From a bacterium BMS3Abin11 (GTDB lineage Bacteria > Pseudomonadota > Gammaproteobacteria > BMS3Bbin11), in assembly GCA_002897635.1 (NCBI GenBank), contig BDTD01000015.1:62001-126000 (forward strand): a stretch of 64,000 nucleotides of DNA, read 5' to 3'. Within the stretch, counting starts at the first letter, position 1. Every line of letters begins with the position of its first letter. Under the pieces are notes generated by a model, which was not told the DNA's origin, did not search any database, and worked only from the letters and a program-made list of their open reading frames with translations. The position numbers and the translations under genes are program-made. Positions 4,390-48,613 of this stretch are shown here, piece by piece.

Positions 4390-6558
4390 TCACAAACGAG
4401 TTAGCCGGGCAAAAGACAGAACCAGCCATTTCACCCCGGCTGACTCGAAATTTACCTGTGCGCGTGTATGCTCTCCCTTTCCTTCAATATTCACGATAAC
4501 CCCTTCACCGAACTTATCATGTCTTACTCTCGCACCCAGTGACAAGCCCGTATCAACCTGTGCCGATGTGTCGTTATTGTACACACCTGTACCCCGCCAT
4601 GGGGTTTGAAAACCTCCGTTTCGTGTTCTTATTTCCTCTGTTGCTTCGACCGGTATTTCTTTTAGAAAACGCGAAGGTGTGGTGTAATTCTCACGTCCGT
4701 ACAACCTACGCACTTCGGCGTAGCTAATATAAAGTTGTTTCATAGCACGCGTCATACCAACATAGCAAAGCCGGCGCTCTTCTTCCAGACGTGCGGGATC
4801 ATTTAGTGCATGCTGGGAAGGAAACAGACCTTCTTCCATGCCGGAAAGAAAAACCAGCGGAAACTCCAGTCCTTTTGCAGCATGTAGACTCATCAGCTGC
4901 ACACAATCCTCCCATGCCTCGGCCTGACCTTCTCCGGCTTCCAGTGCCGCATGCGCAAGGAAGGCTGATAGCGGATCCATTTCCACTTCTTCATCCTGGT
5001 AATAGTTTCTCGCAGCGGTCACCAGTTCTTTCAGGTTTTCAACACGAGTCTCGGCCTTTTCACCCTTCGCATTGCGGTGAAACTCAAGTAAACCTGACTG
5101 AGCCAGCACCTGTTCCACCTGTTCATACAACTCCAGATCCATCATCTGCCCCACGAGCGTATCAATCATATCAAGAAATACGCGCAAGGCATTGCTGGCA
5201 CGTGCAGTGAGTATATCCTCCTGTAGCAATGTTGTGGCAGCCTGCCACATCGTTATGCCGGATGTTCGGGCTTTTTGCCTGACAATATCCAGCGTGCGAT
5301 TACCGATACCCCGGGTCGGCACATTAACAATACGCTCAAAGGAGGTATCATCCTCGTGGTTAAGACAAAGACGTAAATAAGACAATGCATCCTTGATTTC
5401 CGCGCGCTCGAAAAAACGCAGACCACCGTAAACGCGATAGGGCATAGCGACATTGAACAGGGCCTCTTCAAAGCTGCGGCTCTGCGCGTTGGAGCGATAG
5501 AGGATGGCCACTTCGGAACGTGAATTTCCCTCATCAACCCATGCCCGTATTCTGTCGACCGTAAATCGTGCCTCATCGACTTCATTAAAGGCCGCATAAA
5601 GCTTGATCTTTTCACCCTCTTCACCCTCCGTCCACAGAGTCTTGCCCATGCGACCTTCATTGCGACTGATCACGGCATTGGCCGCATTCAGGATAGTCGA
5701 GGTCGAGCGATAATTCTGCTCGAGGCGCACCATTTCAGTTCCGCGAAAATCCTTTTCAAACTTCCGGATATTCTCAACCTGGGCGCCACGCCAGCTGTAG
5801 ATCGACTGGTCATCATCGCCAACCACCATAATATGTGACTGCGGCCCGACAAATTCTTTTAGCCAGCGATACTGAATACTATTGGTATCCTGGAACTCAT
5901 CCACCAGTACAGCACGAAAACGCTCCCGGTATTGAAGACGCAACACTTCATTGTTGTGCATCATCTCCCATGTGCGTAATAACAGTTCAGCAAAATCTAC
6001 CAGTCCCGAGCGCTGACAATACACTTCATATTCCCGATAGACTTTGACCCATTGCTGTTGCTGGGGATCCAGCCCGCTATGCACATCCCCGGCCCGCCGT
6101 CCTGCTTCCTTGTGATGATTAATGAAATGCTGCCCCTGTTTGGGCTGCCAGTAGGAATCATCCAGCTCCATGTTCGCGATGACACGCTTGACTACGCGCA
6201 GCTGATCGTCACTGTCAATGATTTGAAAATTTTGCGGCAGGCCGGCTTCCTGCCAGTGAGCACGAAGCATTCTGTGCGACAGACCATGGAAGGTACCCAT
6301 CCACATGCCGCCCACCGGAAAACCCAGCATCTGTTCGATACGGCCACGCATCTCGCTAGCGGCTTTGTTGGTAAAAGTAACAGCCAGTATTGATAGAGGA
6401 GAATAAGAATAGGCTTGCACCAGCCAGGCCACGCGGTGCGTCAGCACACGTGTTTTTCCGCTACCCGCGCCAGCGAGTACCAGCAATGGCCCTTCTTCTG
6501 CGGTAACGGCCTTGCGTTGCGGCTTATTCAGTCCATCGAGTAGGTGAGATACATCCAT
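4390..6558 (-). CDS. uvrD: DNA helicase II (UvrD/Rep family)
   Basis: A 722-residue superfamily 1A helicase, the usual UvrD length. It starts MDVSHLLDGLNKPQRKAV (Q motif), with Walker A AGAGSGKT at 29-36, DEFQDTN (motif II), GDDDQSIYSWRGA (motif III), VRLEQNYRS (motif IV), LMSLHAAKGLEF (motif V) and CYVGMTRA (motif VI). The C-terminus (KFGEGVIVNIEGKG...) is the Tudor-like tail typical of UvrD and PcrA, which contacts RNA polymerase. It unwinds DNA 3'-5' in nucleotide-excision and mismatch repair. Upstream at 6583-6604 is a half copy of a palindromic-element end. Confidence 0.95.
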   Translation of the reverse strand: MDVSHLLDGLNKPQRKAVTAEEGPLLVLAGAGSGKTRVLTHRVAWLVQAYSYSPLSILAVTFTNKAASEMRGRIEQMLGFPVGGMWMGTFHGLSHRMLRAHWQEAGLPQNFQIIDSDDQLRVVKRVIANMELDDSYWQPKQGQHFINHHKEAGRRAGDVHSGLDPQQQQWVKVYREYEVYCQRSGLVDFAELLLRTWEMMHNNEVLRLQYRERFRAVLVDEFQDTNSIQYRWLKEFVGPQSHIMVVGDDDQSIYSWRGAQVENIRKFEKDFRGTEMVRLEQNYRSTSTILNAANAVISRNEGRMGKTLWTEGEEGEKIKLYAAFNEVDEARFTVDRIRAWVDEGNSRSEVAILYRSNAQSRSFEEALFNVAMPYRVYGGLRFFERAEIKDALSYLRLCLNHEDDTSFERIVNVPTRGIGNRTLDIVRQKARTSGITMWQAATTLLQEDILTARASNALRVFLDMIDTLVGQMMDLELYEQVEQVLAQSGLLEFHRNAKGEKAETRVENLKELVTAARNYYQDEEVEMDPLSAFLAHAALEAGEGQAEAWEDCVQLMSLHAAKGLEFPLVFLSGMEEGLFPSQHALNDPARLEEERRLCYVGMTRAMKQLYISYAEVRRLYGRENYTTPSRFLKEIPVEATEEIRTRNGGFQTPWRGTGVYNNDTSAQVDTGLSLGARVRHDKFGEGVIVNIEGKGEHTRAQVNFESAGVKWLVLSFARLTRL

Positions 6559-6695: not shown

Positions 6696-7018
6696 AGGGC
6701 ATCTATATTAATTCTGGATAGATCAGATTGCATTCCAGATTGTTCATATCAAGGCAAGGATCGCACTTAATAGCTAGGGAACCTCTGATTAATTCTGGAC
6801 GAAGTAGATTGCGATCTAAAATATTCAGGTTTGAGGCGCAAATCACACGTAATAGCTAGCTATTGCGAAGGTTTGCAACGAAAAAACTGGATATTTTAGG
6901 CGTAAGATACGAGTTCATGAATTGATCAGAGTTCCCTAGCTATTGCGAAGATCCTTAACGCAGAGAGGGACGATCTGGGATGGAAGATGAATATTCATGG
7001 ATTAATAGAGGTGCCCTT
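6696..7018. mobile_element. About 161-bp palindromic element, interrupted by a second copy
   Basis: Terminal inverted repeat AGGGCATCTATATTAAT at the left and ATTAATAGAGGTGCCCT at the right. Removing the inner element and one TA leaves 161 bp, the same length as the other family members. Inner pairings include CCAGAT/ATCTGG and AGGATC/GATCCT around a central AATAGCTAGCTATT that is rebuilt when the insert is removed. No coding capacity. It probably moved using a transposase encoded elsewhere. Confidence 0.75.
6777..6936. mobile_element. 160-bp palindromic element inserted in the preceding one (TA duplicated)
   Basis: Ends GGGAACCTCTGATTAATTC and GAATTGATCAGAGTTCCC. TA at 6775-6776 and 6937-6938 is the target duplication: joining the flanks gives AATAGCTAGCTATT, the sequence present at the centre of the inner copy itself. 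Internally CTAAAATATTCAG pairs with CTGGATATTTTAG, and unpaired GAGGCG faces CAACGAA. It is non-coding and about 90 percent similar by eye to 16644-16803. Confidence 0.85.
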
Positions 7019-7042: not shown

Positions 7043-7915
7043 ATGAAACTATACAACCGCACACTCAGAACTACATGTCAGTTCCTGCTTATCCTTTATG
7101 CTATTGGCCCCGTCTTGCTGTTTGCTGAAGAAACTGACCCTCCATCAGCGAACTGGGCCTACTCATCAATCTTTGGTACTGGTTGGTACCAGATAGATAA
7201 CAACCGATCCGTATTCGCGCTGAATCTTCCTGTCCGGCAGACACTACGGAGCTCTTCCATCACTGAATCTGGGAAACGTGAAATTGGCTTCGAAATCGAT
7301 TATGCCCTGTCAGTGGGTTTATACAGCATTGACGACTTGCCGGGGCTCGTGAGCCCCGATAATTTTGGTGCCGTAATTTTCACTCCGGGTATAAAAATGG
7401 AAATCCCAATTACTCATAGATGGTATTTACGCCCTTTCCTGAACTTCGGCTGGGGGTCTGAACTGGGTTCCGGTGACTCGGCATGGATCTATTATGCCGG
7501 CCTCAAAAGCCGCTACACTTTTCCAGCTGATTCCGGAAACTGGGCATTAATTAACAGTATTTACTATGCGGGTTATACACCAGATGTTGGCCCATCAAAT
7601 GACCTGGCAGCGATACTTGCAGGGATTGAATATAAACAACAACTAAAAACAACCAGTAAAACAGGCGAGCCAATTGACCTTCATTGGAGTCTTGCTTATT
7701 CATATCTGGGCGACGAACTAGCTTTTGGACTTCCCGATGGTGACTTCGACTCAGTAGATGACCAGTTCGAAGCAGGACTTGCTTACAGTTACCGAAATCG
7801 CCCGATTAAGTTGTGGTTCATGAAATTTGACAGTGTCGGTCTCGGATACCGGTTTAATTCCAATGGGACATTTAAAGGTATAAGCCTGAACATGGGGTCG
7901 TGGTTTACACGATGA
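7043..7915 (+). CDS. Predicted outer-membrane beta-barrel protein, unknown function
   Basis: A 290-residue exported protein with an N-terminal signal sequence (CQFLLILYAIGPVLLF, then AEE). The rest alternates aromatic and polar residues in short strands (WYLRPFLNFGWG, AWIYYAGLKSRYTF, LHWSLAYSYLG, FEAGLAYSYRNRP, VGLGYRF), as in outer-membrane barrels. I do not recognise a named family. The start is placed at ATG 7043. The in-frame ATG at 6980 lies inside the palindromic element and would add 21 residues ahead of the signal peptide. No strong ribosome-binding site is visible. The element end lies 24 bp upstream, so its promoter region has been remodelled. Confidence 0.6.
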   Translation: MKLYNRTLRTTCQFLLILYAIGPVLLFAEETDPPSANWAYSSIFGTGWYQIDNNRSVFALNLPVRQTLRSSSITESGKREIGFEIDYALSVGLYSIDDLPGLVSPDNFGAVIFTPGIKMEIPITHRWYLRPFLNFGWGSELGSGDSAWIYYAGLKSRYTFPADSGNWALINSIYYAGYTPDVGPSNDLAAILAGIEYKQQLKTTSKTGEPIDLHWSLAYSYLGDELAFGLPDGDFDSVDDQFEAGLAYSYRNRPIKLWFMKFDSVGLGYRFNSNGTFKGISLNMGSWFTR

Positions 7916-16378: not shown

Positions 16379-16803
<425 letters not shown>

Positions 16804-30612: not shown

Positions 30613-30878
30613 AGTGTAGTGCTTCATATTATTTGACGATTAAGCGTGACGAGAAGCCGTTAGCTGCAAGGCAGCTTTCGCAGCAAATGGTTGTTCCCTT
30701 TGCAAGGAAGCTAACGCCGCAGATGACAGCTTCTCGCCGCGCCCGAAGGGAGGCCCACAAATGGCTCAATACAGCGTTGCAGTTCTTGCCAGGGGATTAA
30801 ACCATTGCCTGCTAACTGCGTCTTGTCTTGAACCATTTGTGGGCCTCTTAATCGTCAAATAATATGAAACACTACACT
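30613..30878. mobile_element. 266-bp double-hairpin element with 32-bp terminal inverted repeat
   Basis: Outer arms 30613-30644 and 30847-30878 match over 32 bases with one mismatch. Inside are hairpin 1 (GAGAAGCCGTTA 30651-30662 with TGACAGCTTCTC 30724-30735) and hairpin 2 (GAGGCCCACAAATGG 30750-30764 with CCATTTGTGGGCCTC 30833-30847). A further inner pair is GCAGTT/AACTGC. The right arm contains the recG start codon. It is non-coding and shares its unpaired segments with 44874-45137. Confidence 0.85.
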
Positions 30879-35736: not shown

Positions 35737-35746
35737 TATTAGGTTG

Positions 35747-44642: not shown

Positions 44643-45304
44643 GTTTTTTATTGTTGTGCTGGCACACGGCTTTGTCCCTGGCTGGATGAGTGCTTTTTTT
44701 CTTTTGCTTGTATTGATCCGTGTTTTTCGCCCTTTATGGGCGAGTTACTTTTACTTTGCTTGCTCAAAGAAAAGTAACCAAAAGAAAGAGCACCCGCATG
44801 CTTGCCCATAATAAAAACCATTATGGGTTCCCTGCGATGCTCGGATGAGCTGGCGGGGTGTGAACTCGGGCATGTGTGGTGTAACGACTTATCTGTACAT
44901 ATCAGCGTGGTGAGTAGCCATTAGCTGCAAGACACGTTTCGCCGGGAATGGCATGCCCTTTTCAAGAGACGTAACGCCGCAGATGATGGCTACTCACCGC
45001 GTCCGAAGGGAGACCCACAAATGACCCAATCCTGCGTTACAGCCCTTGTTAAGGGAACAACCATTAACTGCGGGCTGTGCCTTGTCTTGAATCATTTGTG
45101 GGTCTCTGATGTGCACAGATAAGTCGTTACACCACACTACCTCAGACAGGCACACCCCGAAACCCCAGCTCATCCTGTGCTTCTCGGCAAGCCTGAACGG
45201 GATTTTTAAGATCAACACCGAACATCAAAAGCAAAACCAATGGCAATCCTGTAGGTGCGAATTCATTCGCACAGGTTTTGTCCGAAAAAATTTTAACCTA
45301 CATG
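44643..45304. repeat. Long repeat, left copy of an inverted pair (interrupted by an element)
   Basis: About 390 bp of sequence that returns in opposite orientation at 48283-48613: GTGCTGGC start, GTTTTTCGCCCTTTATGGGC, CCCGCATGCTTGCCC, GGGTTCCCTGCGATGCTC, then CACACCCCGAAA, CCAGCTCATCC, AGCCTGAACGGGATTTT and a REP-like TGTAGGT end. The left copy is split by the 264-bp element at 44874-45137; the right copy preserves the uninterrupted site. Short open frames here (...RVFRPLWASYFYF...) are not taken as genes. Confidence 0.75.
44874..45137. mobile_element. 264-bp double-hairpin element with 23-bp terminal inverted repeat
   Basis: Outer arms 44874-44896 and 45115-45137 pair perfectly. Hairpin 1: GGTGAGTAGCCATTA (44909-44923) with TGATGGCTACTCACC (44984-44998). 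Hairpin 2: GAGACCCACAAATGA (45010-45024) with TCATTTGTGGGTCTC (45092-45106). Compared with 30613-30878 the hairpin 2 arms differ at two base pairs, and both changes are compensated. Inner pair ACAGCCC/GGGCTGT. Non-coding. Confidence 0.87.
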
Positions 45305-45405
45305 CAAAAAGCAAGGCCTAACACGCGAGGTTTTTATAATTAGCTACTTTCCGCGCTATTGGCAAATTGAATCAAATCAAAAAACATCAATCTAGAAGGG
45401 TCACG

Positions 45406-45500
45406 AAGGGGTCAAACCTATTTGACTATGTATAAAGCCTTAATTCCTACAATTGCAGCCTGATCGATTAATATTGAAGCCTTAATAAGTAGTAGAAAAA
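45406..45500. repeat. Direct repeat, left copy, flanking the PEP-CTERM gene
   Basis: AAGGGGTCAAACCTATTTGAC, then TATAAAGCCTTAATT, a middle part with ATTGCAGCCTGATCG and GAAGCCTTAATAAGTAGT. Nearly the same about 94 bases occur at 47029-47122 in the same orientation. GTCAAA/TTTGAC forms a small hairpin in each copy. Confidence 0.85.
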
Positions 45501-45753
45501 CACGCCCCCTTATCTTATCTGGTCCGACCCCAGGAACCCTTCACATATCTTAAGATGCAGCACCTGCCCGCTGAGTGTGAAACCTGAGTATATAAACAGT
45601 TTCATGAATCCGTGCTGGCTGGTTTTTCCCGTACTTGACCCCATCTTTCCGAAGCCCGAGAGTGTCAGGATTTTTTACACTTTCATCTTTCAATGCCGTG
45701 TTCTTTCCTGTCTTTCGGCATAATGCCTTGAATTTGTTTTGGTTATTATCTGT

Positions 45754-45768
45754 TGGCACGCAATATGC
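45754..45768 (+). promoter_or_regulatory. Sigma-54 (-24/-12) promoter candidate for the PEP-CTERM gene
   Basis: TGGCACGCAATATGC: GG and GC are separated by exactly ten bases, and only the -12 element differs from TTGC by one base. It lies about 165 bp before the PEP-CTERM gene start. PEP-CTERM genes in other species are often under sigma-54 with the PrsK/PrsR pair, which agrees. Confidence 0.65.
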
Positions 45769-45933
45769 TTTACTGAGTTGTAGTTGTGAATGAGTGAATA
45801 AGAGGCTGAATGAAACACGCATGTAAAGCACCTGTAGTCGTTTCGCCGCACTACATGCGGGGGTATTCAGTGTGCAGTGTGCATTACACAGTCTCTGGAA
45901 TATCGTTTGTTTTGAAATATGGGGAGAAAATCA

Positions 45934-47013
45934 ATGTTCAACACAATTGAAAAACTTATGGTTGTTTTTATTGCAGCCTCCTGGCTTGCTTTGACCTCTT
46001 TACCCGCTTTTGCCGTGCCGATTGCGGTTTTCCAAAATGGCGGGGACCGGCTTGATGCCACGCAAAATACTGATGGTGGCTGGGGCTGGCCGTTGACTGG
46101 GACGAGTGCTAAAAACACCATTGCGCCGATCGCCATGGGGTTGTCCCAGGCTTACCGAAAAACCGGCTCGGCCAGCCAATTGACGGCCCTGCAAAGTGCC
46201 GGGGTGTTCTTTCTCAGTAAAGCGGGAAAATATTCGACGGCCGATGGTTATATCGCTGCTGAGCTTGATGCGGTTATTGGTGGTACCACGTATGCCGATC
46301 ACATCAAGAGCAACTATTACGACAAACTGGCTAACCATACCTACAGCCTCGATGGTGGATCGACCTTTCTGAACACGGCAGAAGAAATTCAGCGGGTGAT
46401 CGATGGCCGGGCCAGTAGCGGCAGGGGGAACCTGGCTGCCTGGGATATCGGCATGGGGCTGGTTAGTGCAGTCGCCCTCGGACTCAATACCAGCGATTGG
46501 GTCAGCGGGACGCAAGCCACCATCAATGCCTTGACGGGCACAGAATATTACGATGTCATAGGCTTGGCCGGTGCGGTATATGGCCTGGCTTCGGCCGGCG
46601 CCGATTTCGATCCCACCACTGGTGAACACGCAGCGGCCGGCAGTCTGGCCGACCTGGCAGGGATTCTGGCCTCCTATCAAATGGTTACTGGCGGTTTTAC
46701 CTGGCATAAGAATTATATGATTCCAGCCAATAATGATGAAACCATCCAGGAAACCGCCTACGCCATTCTGGCGCTGAACGAATTCGACGCCAACCTATAT
46801 TCCAGTGAAATTAGAGATGCTGGGGCTTGGCTGATCAGCACCCAACTCTCCACTGGCGGCTGGAAAAATTGGGCCGGAGGCATGGAGAACAATGAAGTCA
46901 CCGGTGAGGCACTGTGGGCGCTCAGCAGTGTGCCTGAACCGTCGAGCTTCGCACTGTTGCTCCTTGGGCTGGCCGGTCTCGGTGGCGCGCGCCTCCGCCG
47001 CATACGCAGCTGA
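45934..47013 (+). CDS. PEP-CTERM exosortase-substrate protein with terpenoid-cyclase-like repeats
   Basis: A 359-residue exported protein. A signal peptide (LMVVFIAASWLALTSLPAFA) leads to a body with QNTDGGWGWPL, MVTGGFTWHKNY and LSTGGWKNWAGG, spaced like the QW repeats of alpha/alpha-toroid proteins (squalene cyclase/prenyltransferase fold), probably non-enzymatic. The C-terminus has the sorting signal VPEPSSFALLLLGLAGLG followed by RLRRIRS. Such proteins are cut by exosortase and belong to exopolysaccharide/biofilm systems; no exosortase gene is in the window. GGGGAG precedes ATG 45934; an ATG at 45919 would overlap that site. Confidence 0.88.
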   Translation: MFNTIEKLMVVFIAASWLALTSLPAFAVPIAVFQNGGDRLDATQNTDGGWGWPLTGTSAKNTIAPIAMGLSQAYRKTGSASQLTALQSAGVFFLSKAGKYSTADGYIAAELDAVIGGTTYADHIKSNYYDKLANHTYSLDGGSTFLNTAEEIQRVIDGRASSGRGNLAAWDIGMGLVSAVALGLNTSDWVSGTQATINALTGTEYYDVIGLAGAVYGLASAGADFDPTTGEHAAAGSLADLAGILASYQMVTGGFTWHKNYMIPANNDETIQETAYAILALNEFDANLYSSEIRDAGAWLISTQLSTGGWKNWAGGMENNEVTGEALWALSSVPEPSSFALLLLGLAGLGGARLRRIRS

Positions 47014-47028
47014 CCAGTTTTCAAACTG

Positions 47029-47122
47029 AAGGAGTCAAACCTATTTGACTATGTATAAAGCCTTAATTACTTGAATTGCAGCCTGGTCGATTAATATTGG
47101 AGCCTTAATAAGTAGTGGAGAA
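47029..47122. repeat. Direct repeat, right copy, flanking the PEP-CTERM gene
   Basis: About 94 bp, roughly 90 percent identical by eye to 45406-45500 and in the same orientation, starting 15 bp after the PEP-CTERM stop codon. The two copies bracket promoter and gene as one unit. Confidence 0.85.
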
Positions 47123-47124
47123 AA

Positions 47125-47170
47125 CCCCACCCAGGCCCTGTTCTACGACAGAGCTTGGGGCGTGTTTTTC
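47125..47170 (+). terminator. Likely Rho-independent terminator of the PEP-CTERM gene
   Basis: CCCAGGCCCTGT, a short loop, ACAGAGCTTGGG and then GTGTTTTT. The stem is imperfect but GC-rich and is followed by a T run. Confidence 0.55.
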
Positions 47171-47256
47171 AACTACTTATTACTCTTTACATTGTAAAAA
47201 AGACACGACCCCTTATCGTTGCGGCCACTGGAGTGCATTATGCTGCAACCTTCTTC

Positions 47257-47525
47257 TTACTAAGCCGAACCACGATTAGGCAACACTCAGCTTCTCTGTG
47301 CCTTGTTCACGGCAAGGCATCGGAACGCCACTGTAGCCATTCTACAGTAAGTTTCGATAACGAAGTCCGTGAAAAGGCACAGAGAAGCCCATAGGGAGTA
47401 TCCAAAATGATCCAGCTCTGCGTTACGACTCTTGATAAGGGAACAACCATTCTCTGCGAGCCGTGCCTTAATCTGAATCATTTTGGGTCCTCTGAGTGTC
47501 GCCTAATCGTGGTTCGGCTTAGTAA
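47257..47525. mobile_element. 269-bp double-hairpin element with about 34-bp terminal inverted repeat
   Basis: Outer arms from 47257 (TTACTAAGCCGAACCACG) and up to 47525 pair over about 34 bases with one mismatch. Hairpin 1: GCTTCTCTGTGCCTT (47290-47304) with AAGGCACAGAGAAGC (47374-47388), perfect. Hairpin 2: CCAAAATGAT (47402-47411) with ATCATTTTGG (47477-47486). Unpaired TCTGCGTTAC and AAGGGAACAACCATT match the element at 44874. The right arm encodes the last codons of the HTH gene. Confidence 0.87.
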
Positions 47526-47976
47526 CTACCAGGTCAACATCACAATTGAGGACGTGAAGAAGAGCAACCAACTGGCTCATGGACTTACGTGTATTCGCAG
47601 GATCCAGAAGGCGATATAATTGAGGGACAGATGTCCTCAGTCGTTTAGCTATCTGACGCATACTCAGTCCACTACCTTCAATACCATCTTGAGCTTCCAA
47701 TGTAAGTTTGTAAATAAGGAGTTCAGCGAGATACTTCGGATCCTCGTTGTACTCCAGGATCTGCTCAATGTGGATTGAACCTTCTTCTCCTGATTCCAGA
47801 ACATAGGTAAAGGCCTCATTTCCTAGCTCTTTGTCTACAAATGCTTCCCCAATCCGATCATCGGAACATGGGCGTGGATCGGCTTCTCCGTAGGGAAATA
47901 CATAAGTAGCCCCAGAACGGGTTATCACCGTAAATTCATTTCGCCTGTTATTTGATGTAACGCTGCGTATCTTCAT
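47503..47976 (-). CDS. HTH-domain protein with DUF2442-like N-terminus, probable antitoxin/regulator
   Basis: A 157-residue protein. The N-terminal 80 residues (MKIRSVTSNNRRNEF, TYVFPYGEADPRP) resemble the small beta domain of DUF2442-type partners of DUF4160. The C-terminal part has a helix-turn-helix: GLSMRQIAKRLRTSVPQLYRLLDP, then MSQLVALLHVLNCDVDLVV. It overlaps the DUF4160 gene by four bases. The last codons (VTKPNHD, stop) lie in the arm of the neighbouring element, so the original end may have been replaced. Function as antitoxin is inferred. Confidence 0.65.
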   Translation of the reverse strand: MKIRSVTSNNRRNEFTVITRSGATYVFPYGEADPRPCSDDRIGEAFVDKELGNEAFTYVLESGEEGSIHIEQILEYNEDPKYLAELLIYKLTLEAQDGIEGSGLSMRQIAKRLRTSVPQLYRLLDPANTRKSMSQLVALLHVLNCDVDLVVTKPNHD

Positions 47977-48167
47977 AACACACCTTCACTATCTAGTTTT
48001 TCGATAAGTTGAATCAACCTTCGACTGGCCTTTCCCTCCATGGGCTGCCAGTTTTCGAGATCCCACTTAACTACCAGTCTCGATTTTTGGTAGATGTGGA
48101 CATGTCGGGGAGAATGGTCTCCTGTCCATGTCAAAAATATGTAGTTCCCTCTACGTATCTTACCCAT
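47973..48167 (-). CDS. DUF4160-family small protein, possible toxin
   Basis: A 64-residue protein with the DUF4160 pattern GDHSPRHVHIYQ, a beta strand LVVKWDLENW and EGKASRRLIQLIEKL. DUF4160 genes are commonly paired with DUF2442 or HTH genes and are suspected toxin-antitoxin parts; activity is unproven. ATG 48167 is chosen; GTG 48173 would lie at the edge of the operator-like palindrome. Confidence 0.65.
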   Translation of the reverse strand: MGKIRRGNYIFLTWTGDHSPRHVHIYQKSRLVVKWDLENWQPMEGKASRRLIQLIEKLDSEGVL

Positions 48168-48173
48168 ACGCAC

Positions 48174-48195
48174 ATGTTACCACACATGGTAACAT
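48174..48195. promoter_or_regulatory. Operator-like palindrome ahead of the DUF4160/HTH pair
   Basis: ATGTTACCA, a CACA spacer and TGGTAACAT: perfect 9-bp arms ending 6 bp before the DUF4160 start codon. Its position and symmetry fit autorepression by the downstream HTH protein. Confidence 0.65.
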
Positions 48196-48282
48196 TTGCA
48201 AGCCAATAGGGGGCAGGTAATGTATTATCATATCTAACAATCTTCGAGTGATAAACCTACACCACTACCATTGGCCCCATTC

Positions 48283-48613
48283 CAACAAACCATGTCCGAA
48301 TGAATTCGGACCTACAATGTGCTTTTGATTTTGCAGTTGATGTTGACCTTAAAATCCCGTTCAGGCTTGCTGAGAAGCGGAGGATGAGCTGGAAATTTCG
48401 GGGTGTGTTGTTTGAGCGGTAGCGAGTTTCACATCCCGCCGGATCAATTGAGCATCGCAGGGAACCCGAAGGGCAAGCATGCGGGTGGCTTTCTTTTGGT
48501 ACCTTTTCTTTGGCCATCAAAGAAAAGATACTCGCCCATAAAGGGCGAAAAACACGTCTTAATTCAAGAAAATAAATAAGAAGGAAACCCCAGCCGTGCG
48601 CCAGCACAAAAAA
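48283..48613. repeat. Long repeat, right copy of the inverted pair (uninterrupted)
   Basis: Reverse-oriented counterpart of 44643-45304, read from the REP-like end (GTCCGAATGAATTCGGAC at 48294) to GTGCTGGC at 48606-48599. It lacks the inserted 264-bp element. With the left copy it brackets about 3 kb that contains the PEP-CTERM and DUF4160/HTH genes. Confidence 0.75.

Follow-up and report, generated by a model that had tools for sequence, protein, structure and literature searches.

A MITE nested at the central CTAG of a related IS5-type MITE in a cold-seep gammaproteobacterium

How does one palindromic element come to lie at the centre of another? The question is raised by a 323-bp arrangement in the 2.67-Mb genome of a cold-seep gammaproteobacterium (38 contigs, 99.9% complete), of which a 64,000-nucleotide stretch, hereafter the window, was analysed. 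Direct reading of the window bears out the original prediction that a palindromic element, here called I (158 bp), interrupts a second one, O, at its exact centre; O spans 6697-7016, from GGGCATCTATATTAATTC to GATTAATAGAGGTGCCC (Table 1). The nest is confirmed to be real rather than a product of chance, because I has further copies in the window and in the genome and the halves of O match elements elsewhere in the genome. The insert had been described as 160 bp plus one TA, and the predicted restoration of O with the centre AATAGCTAGCTATT, as it stands in intact copies, holds, but the insert is better described as an element of 158 bp and a duplicated CTAG of 4 bp, 162 bp being removed in total. 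One G is missing from the right terminal repeat of the inner copy, and an eroded target duplication, TTAA/TTCA, surrounds the outer one. O lies in the spacer that separates two genes, one for a uvrD/rep-like helicase (4390-6558, minus strand) and the other of outer-membrane type. The longest open reading frame of the latter begins within O (6980), and comparison with the orthologue in L080 places the real start near 7044.

Table 1. Parts of the nest and un-nested copies of family I in the window
Feature	Position	Strand	Remarks
O MITE, left half, GGGCATC...AATAGCTAG	6697..6777	+	Terminal repeat GGGCATCTATATTAATTC; ends in first CTAG copy
Target-site duplication CTAG, left copy	6774..6777	.	Direct reading
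Inner MITE, family I, 158 bp, GGAACC...AGTTCC	6778..6935	+	Terminal repeats GGAACCTCTGATTAATTC / GAATTGATCAGAGTTCC
Intact centre of inner element, AATAGCTAGCTATT	6851..6864	.	Core common to O and relatives
Target-site duplication CTAG, right copy	6936..6939	.	Direct reading
O MITE, right half, up to GTGCCC	6940..7016	+	Terminal repeat ATTAATAGAGGTGCCC
Family I copy, un-nested	16644..16802	+	Repeat comparison in window
Family I copy, un-nested, target duplication TTAA	57610..57768	+	Repeat comparison in window

The target-site duplications reveal which kind of transposition is involved. Perfect 4-bp duplications flank 23 of the 38 parsed copies of I (TTAA in nine, CTAA in six, CTAG in five, TTAG in two and CTGG in one), and all but one of them (22/23) fit YTAR, the published target motif of IS5 (PMC10359306). 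CTAG is additionally the target at both nests of this genome, at the one in the window once the base missing from the right repeat is taken into account. An assignment of I to the TA-inserting (IS630/Tc1-type) MITEs was rejected, since the outer two bases of the duplication also match in those 23 of 38 copies. Of the proposed transposition at TA, transposition itself is thus upheld by the duplicated target, the terminal repeats on either side, an additional independent nest and the empty sister loci, and the target has to be corrected to a 4-bp YTAR, as for IS5. A third family of about 262 bp (L272-L291) likewise ends in GGAACCTCTGAT, and its duplications are mostly YTAR. For O, 4-bp duplications were recovered at 37 copies and are perfect at 16, where only the six TTAA fit YTAR and the others read TATA, ATAT, TAAA, TTTA or TGAA; the YTAR duplication of an IS5-group MITE is hence found in I and not in O. 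Since its duplications are of this looser A/T type, O is probably from another IS5-family branch within that superfamily.

The terminal repeats of both families match those of autonomous IS5-family elements. With an IS5-family transposase as the query, an autonomous element of about 1.17 kb (L111/L305) was identified in the sister genome G005; it has the ends GGAACCTCTGATTAATTC and ATGATCAGAGATTCC and a 324-aa transposase (NF033581 IS5 family, 355 bits; PF01609), and the left terminal repeat of I equals the left end of L111 in 18 of 18 bp. Repeats of this type are carried by autonomous IS5-family elements in four relatives, namely G005 together with G016, G033 (CTAA/CTAA) and G029, all with GGAA(A/C)CTCTGA ends and YTAR flanks; a degenerate element of the type is present in G003. 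The L111-type transposase shares 62% identity with IS5-family transposases annotated on enterobacterial plasmids. In the source genome, a 38-contig draft, no intact transposase matching the repeats of I was found; it may have been lost from this genome or may be hidden at contig ends. The sole IS5-family element found there, L089, is 1254 bp long with GGGCACCTCTATTTAGT ends, the duplication ATAA and a transposase assigned to NF033581 (IS5, 242 bits). Its terminal repeat GGGCACCTCTATT is common with O over 13 bp, a weaker match than that of I to its partner; L089 is the likely relative of O's mobiliser. A truncated IS1182-type protein accounts for the weak IS5-like match at C1:568-882, which was discarded as a partner.

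I and O are both high-copy MITEs of the same genome, each with at least about 38 copies that hold no transposase gene (158-159 bp long in the case of I); these counts are lower bounds, as each search scored 40 candidates out of about 120. Three copies of I lie in the window, with 88-100% identity. Among the matches listed, the inner copy reaches 99% identity with its nearest relatives, and the halves of O match contiguous 162-bp elements elsewhere in the genome at 94% at most, which agrees with the outer copy having come first and the inner one later. At the orthologous locus, G006, G001 and G002 have a short spacer with neither I nor O, and G003 has a different sequence in the spacer, likewise with neither; both insertions are therefore lineage-specific and the 323-bp unit is not ancestral. 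The predicted order, O older and I younger, is supported by these empty loci, by the target duplication and by a second, independent nest.

This second nest (G000:C15:30592-30866) is 38 kb away and has I at the same central CTAG of O, with a perfect CTAG/CTAG duplication and intact repeats. Its inner part is 98% identical to that in the window, but the O halves of the two nests are only 82% identical, which makes it an independent event. The search for further nested copies also yielded two in G060, a Guaymas Basin MAG, both with an I-type element in an I-type element at the same central position and with the target TTAG; one of them reaches a contig end and is cut there. Another candidate, L014 (G000:C22:86170), resembles a third nest of the source genome in its right flank; since on the left it is flanked by the end of an open reading frame and its duplication is imperfect, it was not counted as one.

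We are highly confident that I and O are two related non-autonomous IS5-family MITEs and that I entered the central CTAG of O by IS5-type transposition. In the sequence of events that we propose, O landed first, in the spacer between the helicase and outer-membrane-type genes; at a later time, an IS5-type transposase, presumably the IS5 relative seen in the sister genomes and presumably acting in trans on the GGAACCTCTGAT terminal repeats, moved I into the central CTAG of O, where a 4-bp staggered cut led to duplication of the CTAG. The centre of O was hit because IS5-type transposases use YTAR and the elements carry CTAG as the 4-nt loop on their axis. Three points weigh against this account: no intact transposase for the repeats of I was found in the source genome, the duplication around the outer copy is eroded, and inner and outer elements have one common orientation in all four nests.

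One may argue that no transposition is needed if the 323-bp arrangement is a single ancestral composite element, all the more as another nest of like architecture exists. This reading is already contradicted and can be set aside almost entirely: simple copies of I and of O are plentiful, the outer parts of the two nests have diverged far more than the inner ones, the sister genomes contain no exact copy of the I/O junction, and the ancestral unit that would have overturned the original prediction is not seen in the sister genomes. Again with no transposition, I and O might have become nested when they recombined or underwent gene conversion at their common core. This reading gains something from the shared orientation of inner and outer elements in all four nests (chance, 1/8) and from the occurrence of chimeric copies, but it is very unlikely, as a complete inner element that retains its terminal repeats and is flanked by a clean duplication of CTAG, which is perfect in the second nest, is the signature of transposition. 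The chimeric copy L094 (G000:C33:111398-111558) joins the left half of family I to the right half of family O, and suggests that recombination through the common core did occur there.

A different argument concerns the choice of site. The transposase might recognise the tip of a hairpin or cruciform itself, making palindromic centres hot spots beyond their CTAG, as the original prediction had suggested for the tip of the outer hairpin. The exactly central position in all four nests (two in the source genome, two in G060) speaks for this, but the G060 nests were located by a centre-only pattern, and in the consensus fold the 4-nt loop coincides exactly with CTAG or CTGG. Moreover, the 33 reconstructed non-nested targets of the I terminal-repeat class, which include one locus counted twice, have no palindromic context, with 2.45 of 10 complementary positions against 2.55 of 10 at background YTAR sites (p=0.83), nor was extra folding detected at these sites in comparison with GC-matched ones (p=0.13). 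Few alternatives to the centre are available within the elements, O having five YTAR sites of which one is the CTAG. The window contains fewer CTAGs than expected (45 against 85, eight of the 45 being intergenic and outside the nest), so that a sizeable part of the intergenic CTAGs lies at element centres: with CTAG at the centre of an estimated 50 or so elements, such centres make up about 13% of them when extrapolated to the genome. Six CTAG insertions would then give 0.8 nests, an expectation based on the CTAG density of one window and a simple ORF caller, and the two observed fit it (P=0.18). Tip recognition is thus improbable, if somewhat less so than recombination, and the preference for hairpin tips is not borne out; sequence specificity suffices for central insertion, and structure-specific targeting is not needed.

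The nest also leads to a wider set of hairpin elements. At least 120 stretches, distributed over about 29 genomes of Gammaproteobacteria, contain a core of 20 bases, AATAGCTRGCTATTGCGAAG; tubeworm endosymbionts, Thiotrichales and cold-seep MAGs are among its carriers. The conservation of this 20-mer follows from its use as the query; CAAGGCG and ATCGCACG, which adjoin it, are also conserved. Sixty full elements can be aligned over about 160 bp (alignment A1), and 41 of the 58 consensus pairs show two-sided compensatory changes. On the strand defined by the core, 66 of 67 elements have more G.T than A.C pairs (498 against 212, in self-alignments that score both alike), and the bias is weaker when counted by pair position (28 against 15, p=0.07). 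To judge from these pairing patterns, there are hints of selection on an RNA strand, within the limits set by shared ancestry. It is conceivable, though we consider it doubtful, that a single large family of hairpins of about 160 bp, found across diverse marine and vent Gammaproteobacteria, includes I and O as branches, and that selection on a transcribed, strand-defined RNA hairpin keeps its arms complementary while its core stays conserved; if so, they would be more than passive IS5 passengers. An Rfam search of the locus and a plasmid comparison of the element gave no match, and the literature searched held nothing related to the terminal-repeat or core strings. The family appears to be undescribed in the open-access papers searched.

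Several features of individual copies were observed along the way. Long variants of I (L030, L093, L095) and of O (L106, L107) contain the same block of about 50 bp, GGCCGCTCAATGACATCCTGTCATCGCGGCACTTGTACATCCATGTACTTC, in the same place beside the core, which suggests either a longer common ancestor or exchange between the families. Copies of O between co-directional genes (L031-L058) are mostly antisense (14 against 2, p=0.004) and often lie no more than 30 bp past a stop codon. Several copies of I (L002, L004, L024 and L026 among them) appear to lie exactly on the stop codon of a gene, where the duplication keeps the codon; YTAR contains TAA or TAG in either direction. In addition, other repeat families are present in the window at 30667-30796 and 44696-48579, including diverged repeats of about 100 bp, and GAATTC-containing TGTAGGTGCGAATTCATTCGCAC palindromes lie near 35745, 45250 and 48264.

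In summary, the nest is an IS5-type MITE within an IS5-type MITE, real, well dated and mechanistically ordinary. It provides a clean relative date for two waves of IS5-type MITEs in an uncultured lineage, and it illustrates how a MITE whose centre holds the target site of its own transposase comes to receive insertions of its relatives. With its partner insertion sequences and strong covariation between arms, the wider family offers a system in which to study why the palindromic form of bacterial MITEs is maintained. Among known systems, the IS5 family and MITEs derived from it are closest to I, with a terminal repeat common to autonomous IS5-family elements and a 4-bp YTAR duplication; however, the IS5-family partners encode a DDE_Tnp_1/DUF772 transposase, whereas I and O hold none, almost the whole 160 bp of I and O is an imperfect palindrome, and their conserved core is not at the ends of the partner insertion sequences. 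Correia elements, ERIC and RUP are likewise palindromic, intergenic, high-copy elements of 100-200 bp with TA-containing targets (general knowledge and PMC10969869), but the terminal repeats and core of I and O are different, their duplications are of 4 bp and not TA, and they have no Rfam match. In Coxiella, IS1111 is inserted in the palindrome of QMITE2 (PMC5896051), so that a mobile element again sits at a palindrome inside a MITE. There, the inserted element is an insertion sequence of another family with specificity for palindromes (PMC5896051); here, in contrast, a MITE has entered a related MITE through a 4-bp target.
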